Virus record (IMG/VR): IMGVR_UViG_3300030104_006072 | Coordinates: 1 to 21,448 of that record | DNA: 21,448 bases | Reading direction: 5' to 3' (one strand) | Source: a virus | Part shown: piece after piece, positions 4,518 to 21,448 of the stretch | How the letters are laid out: the number at the start of each line of letters is the position of its first letter | Position numbering within the stretch: the stretch's first letter is position 1 | The notes under the pieces: model-generated | Told to the model about the DNA's origin: nothing | Database searches by the model: none | What the model saw: only the letters and a program-made list of their open reading frames with translations | Position numbers and translations under genes: made by a program

Positions 4518-4907
4518 ATGAAGATCACAAAATCACAACTAAGAAAGATCATCAAAGAAGAAGTTTCAAAAGTTCTTTTGGAAGAGGAAGAATCCTCCTT
4601 TATGGATGCGTACAGAAAAGCCGAAGCCGAAAAGGACCCCGAAGAAAGAGAGGGACTCTTTCAATTAGCGTATAATGATGCTGACTCGGACGATGAAGTT
4701 GATAAATTCCTTAGTAAACTTAAGGCTGATGGTCTTGATAAAGAGTACGAGGACTTTTCCAGACCGATGGATCTTGAGATGTCTCGCCACGTTCACGGAA
4801 AGGGAAAGTCCTATCCCAAATTCGGAGGAGCGATGCAGAAAAGAGGAGATGAACAAGAAGCCAAAGCCAGAGCAGCCCGCCTGAGAAAACAAGGAAAGAT
4901 AAAATGA
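4518..4907 (+). CDS. Small charged protein with putative capsid-targeting N-terminus
   Basis: 129 aa, strong SD (AAGGAG, 4506-4511). It opens with an amphipathic basic helix, MKITKSQLRKIIKEEVSKV, then LLEEEE. This contains the T4 prohead-protease consensus [I/L]-x-E at residues 12-14 (IKE) and 20-22 (LLE). The rest is hydrophilic: an acidic middle and a basic Lys/Arg/Ala-rich C-terminus that could contact DNA. The stop overlaps the protease gene in an ATGA, so the two are translated together. The same N-terminal pattern recurs in the gene after the protease (5524). By analogy with T4 internal proteins, whose short N-terminal capsid-targeting sequence is removed by gp21, I infer a packaged or core protein; the body itself matches no family I know. 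Confidence 0.75.
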   Translation: MKITKSQLRKIIKEEVSKVLLEEEESSFMDAYRKAEAEKDPEEREGLFQLAYNDADSDDEVDKFLSKLKADGLDKEYEDFSRPMDLEMSRHVHGKGKSYPKFGGAMQKRGDEQEAKARAARLRKQGKIK

Positions 4908-5523: not shown

Positions 5524-5952
5524 ATGAAAAAGTCGGAACTTAAATTACTAATCAAGGAATGTATAAAAGAAGTCATCTTTGAGGATGGTATCTTATCTGG
5601 GATTATAACAGAAGTTGCCAGTGGCATGAACACTGTAAATACAAGAGCAACAAGCCAGACCAACGCACCTTTGATGGAAGAAGTTGCCAAACAGAGCGCC
5701 CAAGCATCTGATCTATTGGATGCTCACCGTAAAGAGGTCATGGATGCTGTGGCTTCCAACAATTATGATGACTTGAAGAAGAAATTTTCAAACCCTGAAT
5801 TCTTTGCCGGCACACAGCCGATACAGGAAGGTAAAGGACAATCAGCCCTATCAAATGTTCAGCCCGGTGACGCCGGACTAGACATCAGCAGCATACCAGG
5901 CTTCGGTCATTGGGGATCTGTAGCACAAACATTAGAAAGCAATAAACGATGA
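5524..5952 (+). CDS. Small protein with putative capsid-targeting N-terminus, paralogous start to the 4518 product
   Basis: 142 aa, preceded by AAAGAGG. The first 20 residues (MKKSELKLLIKECIKEVIFE) align with those of the 4518 product as K-S-[QE]-L-[KR]-x-x-I-K-E-x-[IV]. They hold repeated [I/L]-x-E motifs: IKE 10-12, IKE 14-16, IFE 18-20 and ITE 28-30. The remainder is a hydrophilic, probably helical middle (VAKQSAQASDLLDAHRKEV) and a Gly/Pro-rich C-terminus (SIPGFGHWGSVAQTLE). It directly follows the protease gene and its stop overlaps the bS21 start (ATGA). I infer a prohead core or internal head protein processed by the protease. No known family is recognised for the body. Confidence 0.72.
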   Translation: MKKSELKLLIKECIKEVIFEDGILSGIITEVASGMNTVNTRATSQTNAPLMEEVAKQSAQASDLLDAHRKEVMDAVASNNYDDLKKKFSNPEFFAGTQPIQEGKGQSALSNVQPGDAGLDISSIPGFGHWGSVAQTLESNKR

Positions 5953-14332: not shown

Positions 14333-17300
14333 ATGGCTGACAACTCTTCAAGAAAGTTTAAGTTTATTTCCCCAGGGGTATTTATAGATGAAATAGATAA
14401 TTCCCAACTACCGGAACAACCCGGTGACGTTGGGCCTTTGGTTATTGGTAGATCTCGTAAAGGTCCAGCCAATAAGCCTGTCACAATTTCTTCATTTTCT
14501 GACTTTGTTCAGACATTTGGAGAGCCTGTTCCCGGCAACGAGAACGGCGACGTGTGGCGAGAAGGTAATCATACTGCCCCCACATACGCAGCATATGCTG
14601 CCCAAGCTTGGTTAAGAAATAGTTCACCACTCACGTTCATGCGTGTGTTGGGTGACGAATCTTCTGATGCTACGTCTTTAGGTAAGGCTGGCTGGAAGGT
14701 TAACCCAGTTCTTTTAGCTGGGGCATCAGGATTACAGAATGCTAACGGCGGTGTTTACGCTCTATGCGTATGGCCATCTGCTTCTGCTCTTTCCACAACC
14801 GGACACCTTTCTGGTGCCGTTGCTGCACAGATTTACATGGACTCCGGTCGTGTTCTACTTTCCGGCACTGTTGCTGGAACTGACAGAACTTCCCAAGCCG
14901 GTTCAACAGTGTATCAGGTCAGTAGCCTTGACGACATTACCTTGGTTGTGACCAGTAGCGCAATCAATGAAAAGATCACAGTCAGCTTGAATCCTGATAG
15001 TGAGAACTTTATTCGTAAGGCACTCAACACAAACCCAACTATCACCAACAGTTCTATTACAGATGCTGAAACCCAGACTTTTTATCAGGGTGGTGTATAC
15101 TTCTTGGGTGAATCATATGAACGCTCCTTGGTAGTAACTGGATCAACATCTATCGGCAAGCTTGCCGGCGGTTCAACTGCTGGTTACTTTGTAGCAATGT
15201 TGCCAATGGTTGCCTCAGTGAGCACTGACTTAGGCGCTGTCCAGCAAAACGATTTTGAAGGCGCTGCAACCAGAGCCTCCACAGGTTGGTTCATCTCCCA
15301 GGATCTTTCTAACAACAACGCAGCATATTTCGCAAGAAACATGCAAAAGCTTTTCCGCTTGGAAGCACTAAGTGCTGGCGAGTTTGTTCAAAGGGACGTA
15401 AAAATATCAATCTCTAACATTAAGGCACCACAAGGTGACTATCAATCATTCGGCACGTTCTCAGTGTTGGTCCGAGACCTACAAGATACTGACAACCGCC
15501 CAGTCATCATTGAACGCTTTGATGAGCTTAGCTTGAATCCTGCCGCAGCAAATTACATTGCTAAGGTTATTGGCGACAAGTATGAAGTATATGACCAAAA
15601 TGAGAAGCGCCTTGTGGAGTATGGTGAATATGATAACCGCTCCAACTTTATTCGTGTTGTCATGAATGATGATGTGGCTACTGGTACAGGTGAAAGCCGC
15701 TGGCTGCCATTCGGTGTCTGGGGTCCTCGTAAGTACCGTGATGTCGGCTACTCTTCTGGTTCCGGCGGCTGGTCCTCCGACCTAGGCGCTCCAGTGTCCG
15801 CTTCTTTGGGTGCCACCCAAACATTGTTGTTTGGCGGATCTGATGATCATTACGGCAACATCGGACACTCAGAAGGTACCCAGCGTGATTTACTTCATGT
15901 TCCCTTATTTGAGGCAGTCTCATCAATTACAGTTGGCACAGTCACAAAAGCGGGATTGAATGGTGACACTTTCACCCTAACAGATGCTGATGGAAACTCC
16001 CAGCTATTTACTTTTGATACTACCACAAACGATGTTACTGGCGGAACTGTTGGTGTTGCCTCAATGGTAGATACCAACTCCGTAGTTCCCGCTCAGCGAA
16101 TTGCTGCTGCTGTCAATGACCCATCAATCTCATTGAACATGACAGCCGTCGCGACGGTTTTGGGTGGTGACGGAGTACCTTCTACCGTTGTTCTTACACA
16201 ACACCGTGGCGGCATTGCCGGCAATACAGCGGTTGACATGTCAGGTGTTACTAACATATCTGCTACAGCCTTCGCTGGTGGCGGCCAGTTTTCTGGCTCT
16301 ATCTCTTTCCCATCTGTTCCTCTTCGCACCCAGTCAACCTGGGGTGAGCCAAAGAGCTTAAAGAGCACTTATTGGGGAGCTTGGACAGGTAGAACAGGTA
16401 CAGATACATTCTTCAACTCTCAGATTCCAGATTGCTTGAGAATCCGTTCGTTTGATGTATCTAATAATTCTGATGCTGCTTCAACCTCTCACGATGTTGA
16501 GGGTGAGCAAACAGCCCTTAAGGCTTCTGATCCAACAACCATTTCTTGGGTGTTCTCCCTTGACAATGTTTCTGGTTCTTCAGCCGCAGGTTATGCTTAT
16601 GATTCTGGCTACCGTGCCGCTGGCACAAGCTTGACAGCACCAGGCGCTGCTTCATATAAGACAGCCTTGGCTGCCGGTATTGACCGCTTTACTACTACTT
16701 TGCACGGTGGTTCTGACGGCTACAACATCACAGAGCGCGAGCCATTTAGAAATACTAAGATGACGGCAACAGATGAGAAAGACTCATACGAGTTATTCTC
16801 CCTGAGAAAAGCCATCAACATCGCAGCAGATAAAGATTATGTTCAAATGAATGCAATCACCATCCCTGGGATCTGGCGTCCAGCAGTAACAAACTTCTTG
16901 CTTGACGCAGCAGAAGAGCGTGGCGATGCACTAGCCATCATTGATCTTCAGTATGCATACACACCAAGTACTGAAGACACAGGAAGTGCCGCAACTCGTA
17001 ACGCTGGCAATACAGCAACACAAGCTGCTGATACACTAGCCGCTCGTAGCATTAATAACAGCTACGGTGCAACATACTACCCCTGGGTTAGAATCCTAGA
17101 CACTAACACAAACCAGAACTTGTGGGTACCACCCTCAGTAGCTGCTCTCGGTGTCTTGTCTTCTACCGACAGGATCAATGCCCCATGGTTTGCTCCTGCC
17201 GGATTTACCCGTGGTGGTCTTAGCGAAGGCGCAGCCGGTCTTCCCGTGCTTGATGTCTCAAGAAGGCTCACCTCTGACGATCGTGATAAACTCTATGAGA

Positions 17301-17704
17301 ACAACATCAACCCCATCGCTAAATTCCCAGCAGAGGGTATTGTCATCTTCGGACAAAAGACACTACAGCAGACAGCTTCTGCTCTAGACCGTATTAACGT
17401 TCGTCGCTTGATGATCTACTTGAAGCGTGAGATTTCCTTCATTGCTTCCCGACTCTTGTTCGGTCCTAATACAAAAGATACTTGGGATCGCTTCTTGGGT
17501 CAGGCTGGTCCATTACTAGAGAGTGTTCGTGCTGAGTTTGGTATTGATGATTTCCGTCTCGTCCTTGACGAAACAACCACAACGCCTGACTTGGTTGATC
17601 GCAACATTATTTACGCTAAGCTACTCGTCAAGCCCACCCGCTCTGTAGAGTACTTCGCAATTGATTTTGTAGTTACAAACAGTGGGGCAGCCTTTGAGGA
17701 TTAA
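14333..17704 (+). CDS. 18: Tail sheath protein (T4 gp18-like), unusually large
   Basis: Contractile sheath subunit, 1123 aa against 659 in T4. The N-terminus (FKFISPGVFIDEIDNSQLP, then VGPLVIGRSRKGP, APTYAAYAAQAWLRNSSPLTFMRVLG) and residues about 799-1123 (REPFRNTKMTATDE, IPGIWRPAVTNFLLDAAEERG, INVRRLMIYLKREISF, LFGPNTKDTWDRFLG, RNIIYAKLLVKPTRSVEYF) are the conserved sheath core. The middle carries extra beta-rich domains: one at about residues 125-260 and a clear inserted module at about 530-650 (DTFTLTDADGNSQLFTFD, then AQRIAAAVNDPSISLNMTA). Insertions face outward in other sheaths. Strong SD GAGGAGAAGG. The tube gene follows after 42 bases. Confidence 0.95.
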   Translation: MADNSSRKFKFISPGVFIDEIDNSQLPEQPGDVGPLVIGRSRKGPANKPVTISSFSDFVQTFGEPVPGNENGDVWREGNHTAPTYAAYAAQAWLRNSSPLTFMRVLGDESSDATSLGKAGWKVNPVLLAGASGLQNANGGVYALCVWPSASALSTTGHLSGAVAAQIYMDSGRVLLSGTVAGTDRTSQAGSTVYQVSSLDDITLVVTSSAINEKITVSLNPDSENFIRKALNTNPTITNSSITDAETQTFYQGGVYFLGESYERSLVVTGSTSIGKLAGGSTAGYFVAMLPMVASVSTDLGAVQQNDFEGAATRASTGWFISQDLSNNNAAYFARNMQKLFRLEALSAGEFVQRDVKISISNIKAPQGDYQSFGTFSVLVRDLQDTDNRPVIIERFDELSLNPAAANYIAKVIGDKYEVYDQNEKRLVEYGEYDNRSNFIRVVMNDDVATGTGESRWLPFGVWGPRKYRDVGYSSGSGGWSSDLGAPVSASLGATQTLLFGGSDDHYGNIGHSEGTQRDLLHVPLFEAVSSITVGTVTKAGLNGDTFTLTDADGNSQLFTFDTTTNDVTGGTVGVASMVDTNSVVPAQRIAAAVNDPSISLNMTAVATVLGGDGVPSTVVLTQHRGGIAGNTAVDMSGVTNISATAFAGGGQFSGSISFPSVPLRTQSTWGEPKSLKSTYWGAWTGRTGTDTFFNSQIPDCLRIRSFDVSNNSDAASTSHDVEGEQTALKASDPTTISWVFSLDNVSGSSAAGYAYDSGYRAAGTSLTAPGAASYKTALAAGIDRFTTTLHGGSDGYNITEREPFRNTKMTATDEKDSYELFSLRKAINIAADKDYVQMNAITIPGIWRPAVTNFLLDAAEERGDALAIIDLQYAYTPSTEDTGSAATRNAGNTATQAADTLAARSINNSYGATYYPWVRILDTNTNQNLWVPPSVAALGVLSSTDRINAPWFAPAGFTRGGLSEGAAGLPVLDVSRRLTSDDRDKLYENNINPIAKFPAEGIVIFGQKTLQQTASALDRINVRRLMIYLKREISFIASRLLFGPNTKDTWDRFLGQAGPLLESVRAEFGIDDFRLVLDETTTTPDLVDRNIIYAKLLVKPTRSVEYFAIDFVVTNSGAAFED

Positions 17705-17746: not shown

Positions 17747-18313
17747 ATGTCAAGCTTATTTTGGAACGACGTAAGAACTGAGCCTAAGCGTAGGTTTCGG
17801 TTTGAACTTAAGTTTAGCAGTCGCACACTTGGACAGGGTGCTATCCCCGTCTGGACAATCAAAACCGCTAGCAAGCCAAAGGCAAATGTTAGCACCATTG
17901 AGCACCAGTACGTTGATCACACTTTCAAATATCCCGGTAGAGTTACCTGGGATCCAATTTCAATTACTTTGGTAGACCCTGTAGATCCAGATCTTTCCTA
18001 TGCTTTCCTTGATGTGCTAGGTGCTGCTGGCTACAAGTTCCCCACAACTGCTTCTCGTTCTAAGTTGAGCTTAAGCAAGAAGCAATTCGCTGAGCAAATC
18101 GGCTCCGTATTCATTGATCAAATTGATGAGAGCGGTGACATTATTGAGCGTTGGGAACTTATTAACCCATTCATTACTTCTGTTGATTTCGGTGGTAGCT
18201 TAGACTACTCTTCCGACGACATGAACGAAGTAACTGTAGAAGTAACATACGATTGGGCAAGACTCACTCAGACAAAGGCTAATGGTCGCGACCAAACAGC
18301 CGCTGCTGATTGA
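17747..18313 (+). CDS. 19: Tail tube protein (T4 gp19-like)
   Basis: 188 aa (T4 gp19 is 163). It is the inner tube subunit that stacks as hexameric rings inside the sheath. The beta-barrel features of gp19 are visible: RRFRFELKFSS, PVWTIKTASKPKANVSTIEHQ, VDHTFKYPGRVTWDPISITL, the loop with LSYAFLDVLGAAGY, then FIDQIDESGDIIERWELINPFITSVDFGGSLDYSSDD and MNEVTVEVTYDWA. GAGGAG precedes the ATG. The position directly after the sheath is canonical. Confidence 0.94.
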   Translation: MSSLFWNDVRTEPKRRFRFELKFSSRTLGQGAIPVWTIKTASKPKANVSTIEHQYVDHTFKYPGRVTWDPISITLVDPVDPDLSYAFLDVLGAAGYKFPTTASRSKLSLSKKQFAEQIGSVFIDQIDESGDIIERWELINPFITSVDFGGSLDYSSDDMNEVTVEVTYDWARLTQTKANGRDQTAAAD

Positions 18314-18365: not shown

Positions 18366-19250
18366 ATGAGTCGTAATGAGAATAGAACAGGATTTCCTGA
18401 AGATTTCACCCCCCAAGATGATACACCAACTCCTGCTGTTGCAACAACAGTAGGCGCTGGTGCACCTGATTCACAACCAGCATTTTCATGGTCTGTGCCA
18501 ACAGAGTTCGTAACACTGCCAAGCGCCGGAAGATTTTACGAACCCGGACACCCTCTCCACAACAAGGAATCGGTAGAGATCAAGTTCATGACAGCCAAGG
18601 AAGAGGATATCCTCACCTCCCGAGCCCTCCTGAAAGAAGGAGTAGCTTTGGACAGGATGCTTCAGAACCTAGTTGTTGATAAAAATGTTCGCATCGGCTC
18701 GCTCTTAGTTGGAGATAAAAATGCTTTACTAGTGGCAGCAAGAAGAACAGGGTATGGTCCAGATTATGAGACTAACGTGACGTGTCCGGCTTGCAACCAG
18801 ACAGAGCAGTTTTCGTTTGATATCTCGGATCCCAAGGCTACTTCATATATGGAGAGTATGGATGTTCACGGAGTTGTCCTGACTGATCGTAGAACTTTAA
18901 TGATCACTCTTCCAATGACAAAAGCCCAGGTAGAATGCCGCATGTTATCAGGCGACGACGAGGTGCGAATCTTTAAAGAGACTGCTCGCAAGCAGAAAAA
19001 GAAAATGCAGGTTGGTATAATGACAGACTTGTTCCGAAATTACATCGTTAGTGTAAACGGAAATGAGTCACCCTTAGTCATAGAATCATTCATTCAAGCG
19101 GTACCGGCAAAAGATGCGCGTATTCTGAGAATGGCTTATACTGAGTGTGTTCCTAATATTGACATGACTCAAGAGTATGATTGCACCAACTGTGGTCATA
19201 CGGCGGACATGGAGGTTCCGCTCACTGCGGACTTTTTTTGGCCTAAATGA
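18366..19250 (+). CDS. T4 gp26-like baseplate / tail-assembly protein with CxxC pairs
   Basis: 294 aa. The region EFVTLPSAGRFYEPGHPL, then VEIKFMTAKEEDILTSRALLKEGVALDRMLQNLV matches the T4 gp26 baseplate-protein family (PF12322 as I recall). Two cysteine pairs, Cys140/Cys143 (TCPACNQ) and Cys273/Cys276 (CTNCGH), could form a four-Cys zinc ribbon. It ends LTADFFWPK, the ending I remember for this family. Residues 1-45 are Pro/Thr-rich and flexible. It lies between tail tube and tape measure, where many phages encode tail-assembly chaperones, and its last codons contain a T7 run next to an open shifted frame. It could serve as a chaperone for the tape measure, with a longer frameshifted form; T4 gp26 itself is described as a baseplate hub component. 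Confidence 0.82.
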   Translation: MSRNENRTGFPEDFTPQDDTPTPAVATTVGAGAPDSQPAFSWSVPTEFVTLPSAGRFYEPGHPLHNKESVEIKFMTAKEEDILTSRALLKEGVALDRMLQNLVVDKNVRIGSLLVGDKNALLVAARRTGYGPDYETNVTCPACNQTEQFSFDISDPKATSYMESMDVHGVVLTDRRTLMITLPMTKAQVECRMLSGDDEVRIFKETARKQKKKMQVGIMTDLFRNYIVSVNGNESPLVIESFIQAVPAKDARILRMAYTECVPNIDMTQEYDCTNCGHTADMEVPLTADFFWPK

Positions 19251-19452
19251 CGAATACATAGAGAATGTGTATGAGCAAATCTTCCAGCTAAAATACCATG
19301 GCGGCTGGAGTTTTTTTGAGACATACAACCTCCCTGTTAGCGTAAGAGTTTGGTTTTTGAACCGTCTTATTGAGCAAAAAAACAAAGAGTCTGAATCAAT
19401 AAAAAGTCAGACTAAATCCACCAAAGCCCGAGGTCGGACCTATACTCCGTAA
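19177..19452 (+). CDS. Downstream chaperone-like frame, probably expressed by frameshift from the gp26-like gene
   Basis: The conserved-looking part is read from 19240 on: GLNDEYIENVYEQIFQLKYH, then GGWSFFETYNLPVSVRVWFLNRLIEQ, then a Lys/Ser/Thr-rich tail. The pattern W-F-E-YNLPV-x-R-x-WF resembles the short C-terminal domains of frameshifted phage tail-assembly chaperones. I give the longest frame, from ATG 19177, but that part overlaps the gp26-like gene by 74 bases, encodes an Arg-rich shadow and has a poor ribosome site. The only other in-frame start is GTG 19267, inside the conserved part. Expression as a 70-aa extension of the gp26-like protein by +1 or -2 slippage (about 361 aa in total) fits better. 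An assembly error in the T run is an alternative. Confidence 0.6.
   Translation: MIAPTVVIRRTWRFRSLRTFFGLNDEYIENVYEQIFQLKYHGGWSFFETYNLPVSVRVWFLNRLIEQKNKESESIKSQTKSTKARGRTYTP
19233..19241 (+). promoter_or_regulatory. Candidate programmed frameshift site (T7 run)
   Basis: The end of the gp26-like gene reads GAC TTT TTT TGG CCT AAA TGA. Slipping one base forward on the T run, or two back, leaves its frame and enters the one encoding GLNDEYIENV. The tRNA-Phe in the P site can re-pair fully on TTT after +1, and the zero-frame A-site codon is the single Trp codon TGG, with a stop two codons later. The -1 frame meets TAA at once, so only +1 or -2 would be productive. Confidence 0.5.
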
Positions 19453-19503: not shown

Positions 19504-19833
19504 GTGCAAATAGATTTTGAAAATGATGTTTTAGACCTTACCCAGTTTCGGGGTGATGAGCTAAACGAAAACATTCTCCACGTTTTTGCTGCGTGGATTG
19601 AGTATCTTTTGAGCAAAATGTTCAAAGGGCGCAGAGTCCCTGTCAGAGTCAAAGGCAACAGAATAGAAGTAGAGAGATTTACTGACGCCTTGGTGAATGA
19701 AAAAAAGTACCTAGACTTCATTAAGAAGTATGGACTAGATGACCCAATGACCTATAATCAAAAAGCAAAGCTTGAGATTGCTATCAAGAGATTTGAGAGA
19801 GAAGCCGGCATCAACTGGCCTATCAAGGGGTAG
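19504..19833 (+). CDS. Unrecognised 109-aa protein upstream of the tape measure
   Basis: 109 aa with a GTG start, preceded at about ten bases by GGAG; no ATG in frame fits better. It is hydrophilic and mixed charge, with a predicted helical region (ENILHVFAAWIEYLLSKMF), a basic strand pair (GRRVPVRVKGNRIEVERFTD) and further helices ending FEREAGINWPIKG. No signal peptide or membrane segment. Its position between the chaperone-like pair and the tape measure, 5 bases before the latter, suggests a tail-assembly role, but no family is recognised. Confidence 0.75.
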   Translation: MQIDFENDVLDLTQFRGDELNENILHVFAAWIEYLLSKMFKGRRVPVRVKGNRIEVERFTDALVNEKKYLDFIKKYGLDDPMTYNQKAKLEIAIKRFEREAGINWPIKG

Positions 19834-19838
19834 GCTAG

Positions 19839-21448
19839 ATGTCTGACGAAAATCAAAATATTAAAAATTTAGAAACCAGCGCAAAGAATGCTCGCAGAGC
19901 GTTAGAAGACCTTGTGCGAACTAAGGGTGAGGCTGCCAAGAAGAGTAAAGAATACAGCGATATTCTGAATATAGTAAGAAATAGAGAAGATCAGATAACC
20001 GCCGCTAGACAAAGACAAGCCCAAGCGGCTGAGGCTGCTCGCCTCGCCGCAAAGGCTCTGGCAGAAGAAGTAGAAAAACACAACAAGGCCCTTAACGAAA
20101 CAAAGACCACCCTAGATACAATTATCCCTGGACTAGGTTCTCTTACAGAAGCGTTTCAGAAAAACAGTGAAGGTGTTGTTGATTTTTCGGCAAATCTCAA
20201 AAATTTAGCCGACAAAGCCGCGAATGCTTCAATAGCTAGTAATGCAAAGCTAGCCAAAAGCTTTGAAGAGATCAATGTAAGCCTAGCCAGACAAACAGGG
20301 TATTCCAGCGCACTGCAAAAAGATGTAATAGAGCTTGCTAGTTCGCATGATGACCTTTATTTGACAATGGACGACGGCATCAAGATCGTAGGAGCCCTAT
20401 CAACAGGTTTCAAGATGTTTAATGCTCAGAGCAAGGCAATACGAAAAGAGACTAACGATCTCGCCGGCAGATTCCAGACTCTCGGTGTTGACGCCGGGGC
20501 GTTTTCCGAAGCCATGGATCAACTTAATGACGGGTTTGGGCTAACAACCACTGGTGCTATTTCTGCTATGGCAGAATTTGAAAATCTAGCCATCAGAACA
20601 GGACAACCTCTGTCAGCAGTTGTAAATGATTTTAAAGATCTCGGACCACAAATGGCAAGGTTTGGATCCGATGGTGTACGAGTATTTACCCAGCTAAATC
20701 AGCAGGCGCGAACACTAGGACTCACAACAAGACAGGCTTTTGACATCTCTGAGTTGTTTGATACATTTGAAAGTTCGGCTGATGTTGCCGGCAAGTTAAA
20801 TGCACAATTAGGACTCCAACTTAATTCCGTGGAACTAATGGCAGCTTCCTCGGAAGATCGTTTGAAGATTCTCCGAGCAGAGTTTGATATGCGTGGAATG
20901 AACATGAAAGACATGGGCCGCCGCCAGAAGCAAATGATTGCAGAGATTCTAGGACAAGATGTATTGACTGCCGAAAAGCTTTTGGGCGACCCCATGGCAA
21001 TGCGTAAATTCCAAAGAGAACAGGCAAACAATGCTGACAGGATCAAAGAGTTCAACACGGCGATGACCAAGTTTAGTCAATTGGCAGAACAACTGTTCAT
21101 AAATATTGCACCAGTTTTCAACTACATCCTTGAAGGACTAAATGGTATTGCTGAGATGTTTAATGATATATTCTCAAATAAGTACGTGGGAACTCTTATT
21201 TCAAGCCTTACAATTGTTGGCGCACTCATGTGGAAAATATGGAGAGTAGGCGAGATGTTTGGTAAAACCATGGGTGCTATAATGGCAAAGGTAGCCCCGT
21301 TCCTTGCCATATTCCAAGCATTAATAGATCTATCAGAATCGTTCGGCTACGGCGACGGGGCCGATACTTCAGGGCAGCAAAAGGCTTGGTGGCGATTGGG
21401 TGCTGGTATTTTGGGTGCGATCATCGGGACCTTTATCGGTGGACCACT
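19839..21448 (+). CDS. Tape measure protein, 5' part (runs off the window)
   Basis: Open to the window end with no stop, 536 full codons. It starts at ATG 19839 with AGGGG about eight bases upstream. Residues 1-100 are a long Lys/Glu/Ala-rich coiled coil (RRALEDLVRTKGEAAKKSKE), followed by helical repeats rich in Ala, Leu and Gln (GLGSLTEAFQKN, LARQTGYSSALQKDV). Hydrophobic stretches appear at about 448-467 (YVGTLISSLTIVGALMW), 486-499 and 520-536 (LGAGILGAIIGTFIGGP), as is usual for tape measures, which enter the tail tube and later help DNA cross the membrane. Position after tube and chaperone-like genes fits. The protein sets tail length; T4 gp29 has this role but no clear sequence match is visible to me. 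Confidence 0.82.
   Translation, partial: MSDENQNIKNLETSAKNARRALEDLVRTKGEAAKKSKEYSDILNIVRNREDQITAARQRQAQAAEAARLAAKALAEEVEKHNKALNETKTTLDTIIPGLGSLTEAFQKNSEGVVDFSANLKNLADKAANASIASNAKLAKSFEEINVSLARQTGYSSALQKDVIELASSHDDLYLTMDDGIKIVGALSTGFKMFNAQSKAIRKETNDLAGRFQTLGVDAGAFSEAMDQLNDGFGLTTTGAISAMAEFENLAIRTGQPLSAVVNDFKDLGPQMARFGSDGVRVFTQLNQQARTLGLTTRQAFDISELFDTFESSADVAGKLNAQLGLQLNSVELMAASSEDRLKILRAEFDMRGMNMKDMGRRQKQMIAEILGQDVLTAEKLLGDPMAMRKFQREQANNADRIKEFNTAMTKFSQLAEQLFINIAPVFNYILEGLNGIAEMFNDIFSNKYVGTLISSLTIVGALMWKIWRVGEMFGKTMGAIMAKVAPFLAIFQALIDLSESFGYGDGADTSGQQKAWWRLGAGILGAIIGTFIGGP

Follow-up and report, generated by a model that had tools for sequence, protein, structure and literature searches.

The window analysed here is a 21,448-nucleotide stretch of viral DNA in which a frame of 70 codons lies directly behind a gp26-like gene and out of register with it (Table 1), and the question raised by this locus is how, and as part of what product, that frame is translated. 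Our results point to one mRNA giving both a short and a long tail assembly chaperone by +1 programmed ribosomal frameshifting, a reading to which we assign a probability of roughly 85% on comparative sequence evidence, and a large group of mostly uncultivated T4-related bacterial viruses seems to make both forms through the same one-base skip.

Table 1. Features around the proposed shift site, with positions in the window
Feature	Position	Strand	Basis or match
Tail tube protein, upstream neighbour	17747..18313	+	phrog_4542 1e-24, PF06841 2e-4
gp26-like gene, zero-frame product 294 aa, proposed short tail assembly chaperone (TAC-N)	18366..19250	+	PF12322, phrog_150
GGAGG in codons ATG GAG GTT, part of upstream element 19211-19232	19211..19215	+	GAG conservation
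CCG proline codon of upstream element	19218..19220	+	CCG bias
GAC codon directly before shift site	19230..19232	+	GAC fixed
Shift site TTT TTT TGG (UUU_Y, proposed P-site tRNA-Phe +1 slip)	19233..19241	+	
+1-frame extension, 70 aa, C-terminal part of proposed long chaperone (TAC-NC)	19240..19452	+	
Zero-frame stop TGA	19248..19250	+	read directly
109-aa ORF, GTG start, between extension and tape measure gene	19504..19833	+	no family match (profile searches)
Tape measure protein, runs off window	19839..21446	+	phrog_167 2e-10

The gp26-like protein matched PF12322 in a profile search (6e-15; 55.9 bits vs a curated cut-off of 24.5) and phrog_150 (1e-15, columns 11-233). A preliminary description of this DNA had placed the gene and its extension between tail tube and tape measure, which agrees with the phrog_4542 match upstream and the phrog_167 match downstream, and the order tail tube, gp26-like gene, tape measure is found in isolate genomes as well. 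In the zero frame the gene ends ...GCG GAC TTT TTT TGG CCT AAA TGA, with a run of seven T at 19233-19239; the +1 frame reads TTT TTT GGC CTA AAT GAC GAA TAC and is open to 19452, and the -1 frame stays open only briefly at this junction. The 70 residues of the extension begin GLNDEYIENVYEQIFQLKYHGGWSFFETYNLPVSVRVWFLNRLIEQ..., and for the fused translation reading TGGC as G gave a clean fusion, while reading TTTT as F matched two further in-frame sites too. The same description had the shifted frame entered at the T7 run two codons before the zero-frame stop; the run is as it stated, but the stop follows the second TTT after three sense codons, and the ATG at 19177 that it took as the start of the frame is an unrelated upstream codon, since the conserved part runs from 19240 (GGC). 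The window holds no match to Rfam families and no tRNA genes. Further upstream, the tail sheath ORF (14333-17704, 1123 aa) is far longer than T4 gp18, and the family matches of some models are confined to near its ends, pointing to large inserted domains. Two small proteins, at 4518-4907 and 5524-5952, have similar lysine-rich N-termini (MKITKSQLRKIIKEE, MKKSELKLLIKECIKE), a motif repeated between them.

About 200 loci came from scans of IMG/VR in which the gp26-like protein and the extension each served as query. In the first analysis the extension was in the +1 frame at all of 76 junctions except one (L035), whose contig is visibly frame-broken, and over all loci it was in +1 at 157/158 distinct junctions, the loci being related and not 157 independent events. 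The point of entry was a zero-frame UUU with a pyrimidine as the next base (UUU_Y) in every one of the 157 +1 junctions, each with the +1 frame open from there for at least 45 codons, and three or four sense codons separated the shift codon from the zero-frame stop in 144 of them. The junction motif was TTTTTTTGGCCT in 132 cases, TTTTTTTGGTCT and TTCTTTTGGCCT in 6 each and TTTCTTTGGCCT and TTTTTTTGGACT in 3 each, with singletons that include TTTCTATGGCCT. Both the frame relation and its conservation, as well as the UUU_Y rule, are direct readings of the aligned sequences.

The T run itself, which the preliminary description had proposed to follow through homologues together with the shifted frame, was seven or more long at at least 141 of the 158 junctions. 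Such a run could in principle let RNA polymerase slip and produce mRNAs one U shorter that are read normally into the extension. However, at least 10 distinct loci in which the run is broken to T4 or T3 (TTCTTTTGG in 6, TTTCTTTGG in 3 and TTTCTATGG in 1) keep both the +1 relation and UUU_Y, and we consider polymerase slippage very unlikely. Homopolymers are also error-prone and the window is a metagenomic contig, and a miscounted T by sequencing or assembly had been a concern from the outset; over 150 distinct contigs show the same relation, as do complete isolate genomes (Microcystis phage Mel-JY01 and Flavobacterium phages among them), and the probability of such an error is negligible. The shift had at first been given as +1/-2, and the shift into the +1 frame is the part that comparative sequence strongly supports. 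A -2 ribosomal shift would reach the same frame with one extra residue and is formally possible on TTTTTTT, but it finds no cognate re-pairing in loci with TTC TTT TGG, TTT CTT TGG or TTT CTA TGG and is barely credible; +1 re-pairing from UUU to UUY is cognate at every junction.

The extension is also under coding constraint, which bore out its earlier description as a conserved frame. Among 47 close pairs, synonymous and non-synonymous codon changes in the extension stood at 603:196 in the +1 frame vs 76:717 and 72:719 in the other frames, and the degenerate codon position is phase 2 before the T run and phase 0 after it. The bases after the slip vary as GGN (GGC/T/A/G) followed by a Leu codon, variation that is synonymous in +1 only and that in the zero frame would turn Pro into Ser, Thr or Val. 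Constraint in the +1 frame can thus be read from the sequences as starting at GGC, directly past the T run.

This starting point bears on whether the extension could be a separate small protein, made from its own start, whether through translational coupling or by internal initiation downstream of the GGAGG, and never fused to the gp26-like protein. The GGAGG is kept upstream, an ATG stands 15 nt before the GGC codon in 9 loci, and two loci have an ATG for the extension, all of which would suit such a protein; its start, however, is not conserved. In 49/156 loci there is no ATG, GTG or TTG upstream in the open +1 frame, 28 of those 49 (28/156) are also without CTG or ATH, and 16 of the 28 have no standard start within 11 codons downstream either, in line with the earlier remark that the frame has no convincing start. 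The +1-frame codon 9 nt past the GGAGG is not conserved either, and coding constraint that begins straight after the T run is not what an independent start would predict. On balance, a wholly separate protein has only a slim chance. The ordinary start that the preliminary description had held against its own proposal occurs only in two distant relatives, L119 and the cyanophage S-SCSM1 (L207), and these indicate that separate translation of the extension is possible in principle; it is possible as a minor route at most. L119 (LR756511, a 595-kb metagenomic phage) has, from 3271 onward, the extension in -1 with its own ATG overlapping the gp26 stop (TAATGG). In Synechococcus phage S-SCSM1 (4687-4874), an insertion past the slip site gives the extension its own ATG and puts it in +1, and this cyanophage seems to have decoupled the two proteins.

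In bacteria, UUU_Ynn has been described as particularly liable to +1 shifting (PMC5009743), and the presence of UUU_Y at all +1 junctions fits a slip of peptidyl-tRNA-Phe from UUU to UUY. That the shift is ribosomal is our inference, and so is its efficiency. In the frameshifting that we propose, peptidyl-tRNA-Phe on the UUU before UGG would slip +1 onto the overlapping UUU in some ribosomes, presumably during a pause with UGG in the A-site, and reading would continue GGC CUA... The short product would be the gp26-like chaperone ending FFWPK, and the long product, of about 361 aa, would carry FF followed by GLNDEYIENVYEQ...

Conservation at the RNA level was found upstream of the site. The Glu codon of the upstream element is GAG in 126/131 sequences vs 38% in the gene, and in a control GAG stood at 43/46 in the element vs 15-27 of 37-49 at other conserved Glu codons. 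The proline codon is CCG in 105/145 (9% in the gene), with CCA almost missing, and the Asp before the shift site is GAC in 95/95 and never GAT (GAC is 32% in the gene). At the site itself, the second Phe codon is TTT in 142/142 vs 73% in the gene, and the codon that follows is CCT in 135/135 vs 29%, whereas controls at other conserved residues gave no comparable third-position constraint. CCT is fixed because of the +1 Leu codon, which does not account for the bias towards GAG, CCG and GAC. The SD-like elements of prfB and dnaX act from closer spacings, in prfB about 3 nt upstream of the shift, and the GGAGG here lies 17-20 nt from the slip codons, too far for the action of a prfB spacer; SD stimulation of the prfB kind was rejected on this spacing. 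No conserved RNA structure was found around the shift site. In the cyanophage-type loci (L205-L288), GAG is enriched at -15 (43/63).

The +1-frame extension is present in isolate genomes too. In Microcystis phage Mel-JY01 the junction is TTTTTTTGGCCT and the region is annotated as two overlapping hypothetical proteins, of which the extension (L113 3234-3470) starts as a separate protein within the gp26 gene; this is probably a mis-annotation of the fused form. Flavobacterium phage immuto has the junction TTTCTTTGGCCT; there the extension is either not annotated or reduced to a tiny ORF, and in Bacillus SP-15, Listeria LIS04 and Streptococcus GXN1 the extension is likewise in the +1 frame. A frameshifted reading would correct the annotation of such isolate genomes. 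The gp26 3' ends of three Firmicute phages (L115, L116, L117) have in common CCCGATTY, before the stop and downstream of UUU_Y, and the nCC_CGA in it is a candidate second slip.

The role of the two products is supported by homology. PF12322 matches both T4 gp26 (208 aa) and gp51 (249 aa), the latter with ~48 extra C-terminal residues, and on this basis genes 26 and 51 would be the T4 pair. In phrog_150, T4 gp26 covers columns 14-235, T4 gp51 13-280, cyanophage gp26 5-232 and the window protein 11-233; the cyanophage extension matches columns 236-281 and has phrog_634 in common with T4 gp51. The window extension gave no significant match when compared directly with the gp51 C-terminus, and it aligned without gaps to the cyanophage extension over 61 columns (hhalign, probability 91.7, E 8e-7). 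By these profile comparisons the window extension would be homologous to T4 gp51 only through the cyanophage family, and calling it chaperone-like, as had been done at first, is supported. The gp26 part and the extension were structure-modelled separately. The gp26 model, a confident one (pLDDT 87.6), matched viral gp26-type models, SP-15 among them, and no solved structure by sequence or fold at E <= 0.001 (HK97 TAC 2ob9, E 3.5); the extension was modelled as three helices, with no viral structure at an E below 0.001.

By homology the short and extended products are supported as short and long tail assembly chaperones; the presumed binding partners are the tape measure protein, which the short form would coat, and tail tube subunits, which the long form would recruit through its helical extension. 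Frameshifting could also be real and both products be structural parts of the baseplate hub that do not dissociate, since the family is annotated as baseplate hub and older genetics put T4 gp26 in the hub (PMC3004832). However, the same review counts both gp26 and gp51 among the hub assembly chaperones and gives gp51 as missing from the particle (PMC3004832), and the location between tube and tape measure, together with the short and long pattern, matches tail assembly chaperones, so that a purely structural role seems rather unlikely.

Following the extension domain also led to bacterial contractile injection systems, where a -1 frameshift has likely gone unrecognised. The window extension weakly resembles DUF6760 in a profile search; DUF6760 was not found in two flavobacterial MAGs. 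A Bacteroidota contractile cluster (L298:871-1626) encodes PF12322 and DUF6760 in a single ORF behind a gp19 tube gene, with the junction between QSFF and MLRL, directly past the Phe-Phe, and the ATG straight after FF could give a free C-terminal product. This in-frame fusion counts in favour of the proposed chaperone function. Another cluster from the Bacteroidota search (L297) has DUF6760 in a shifted frame. Together with plasmids of Nostoc, Brasilonema, Rhodococcus, Embleya, Streptomyces, Rhizobium and Paenibacillus (L299, L300, L301, L302, L303, L304 and L305, with the junction near 1201), it forms a set of contractile-injection-type clusters of which 8/8 have DUF6760 in the -1 frame, where it overlaps the end of a 'phage tail assembly protein' ORF. 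A G_GGG_G(AA/AG/GA) heptamer is present in 8/8, near the stop and, in Embleya, further upstream. This arrangement suggests an unrecognised -1 frameshifted chaperone in eCIS; in the open literature searched, no paper linking eCIS to ribosomal frameshifting and no mention of DUF6760 was found.

A broader proposal would join these observations. RTGGAGGTnCCG...GAC, which is conserved as RNA with no conserved fold, may be a new 5' stimulator of +1 shifting, and recoding at the end of gp26-type genes may be ancient, with its direction switched (+1 here, -1 in cyanophages, duplication in T4), and common to bacterial contractile injection systems, in which DUF6760 would be the unrecognised C-terminal half of the chaperone. 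As a whole we regard this proposal as tentative, with somewhat less than an even chance of being right.

According to a 2016 review (PMC5009743), tail-chaperone frameshifting is conserved in long-tailed phages 'except T4'. Vladimirov, Gautam and Davidson 2022 has since been cited by a 2025 paper (PMC12846349) as the source for poly-T signals of -1 shifting in T4-like chaperone genes and by PRFect (PMC10885494) as the source for separate genes encoding the short and long copies. From these citing papers, the idea of T4-like chaperones, and of -1 shifting in some of them, was already known, and with the title they indicate that the link between T4 hub genes and the chaperone system is the subject of that work. 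The preliminary description had offered the link of T4 hub biology to the G/GT pair as its wider meaning; it is supported, but it is not new. No report of a +1 shift in the gp26/PF12322 family was found in the open literature, a search that the full text of Vladimirov et al. 2022 lies outside. What is new relative to the known T4-like recoding is the +1 mechanism and the RNA-level conservation upstream of the site. A large T4-related lineage would solve the same problem by a +1 shift, and with -1 in cyanophages and duplication in T4 one homologous position would have at least three solutions, which allows direct tests of why the direction switches and what ratio is needed. A natural UUU_Y +1 site with deep conservation is a further gain from this locus.

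Compared with the G/GT pair of phage lambda, the locus has the same location between tail tube and tape measure and, at sequence level, the same design of one gene with a short and a C-terminally extended product; lambda, however, shifts -1 at a heptamer, and no sequence relation was detected. T4 gp26 and gp51 are likewise short and long PF12322 members, but they are two separate genes in place of one gene with recoding, and six related contigs of 100-188 kb have one PF12322 gene each vs two in T4. The cyanophage (Kyanoviridae) gp26 is closest, with the same gene family, Phe-Phe position and a homologous gp51-like extension, whose second frame is likewise unannotated or separately annotated. 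Its extension, in contrast, is in the -1 frame at U_UUU_UU(C/A/G) in 62/63 distinct junctions and its second Phe codon is TTC in 60/63, whereas the window has TTT and a +1 relation at UUU_UUU_UGG; the slippery heptamer X_XXY_YYZ with the extension in -1 does not describe our loci, of which 157/158 are +1. In the DUF6760 clusters, too, a small equivalent C-terminal domain follows the tail assembly protein out of frame, but by -1 at G_GGG_G(AA/AG/GA). E. coli prfB resembles the window in the +1 slip of a pyrimidine-rich P-site codon and a purine-rich SD-like element upstream, and differs in that the A-site here is UGG and not a stop, and the element lies 17-20 nt upstream, against about 3 nt in prfB. 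The SD-like GAGG of the cyanophage-type loci lies 10 nt upstream, as in dnaX. Y. pestis YopN-TyeA and influenza PA-X (UCC_UUU_CGU) concern other genes, and the A-site here is mostly UGG, but they follow the same P-site logic, in which UUU re-pairs on UUY (PMC5009743), and a UUU_Ynn site is what all 157 of our +1 junctions have.
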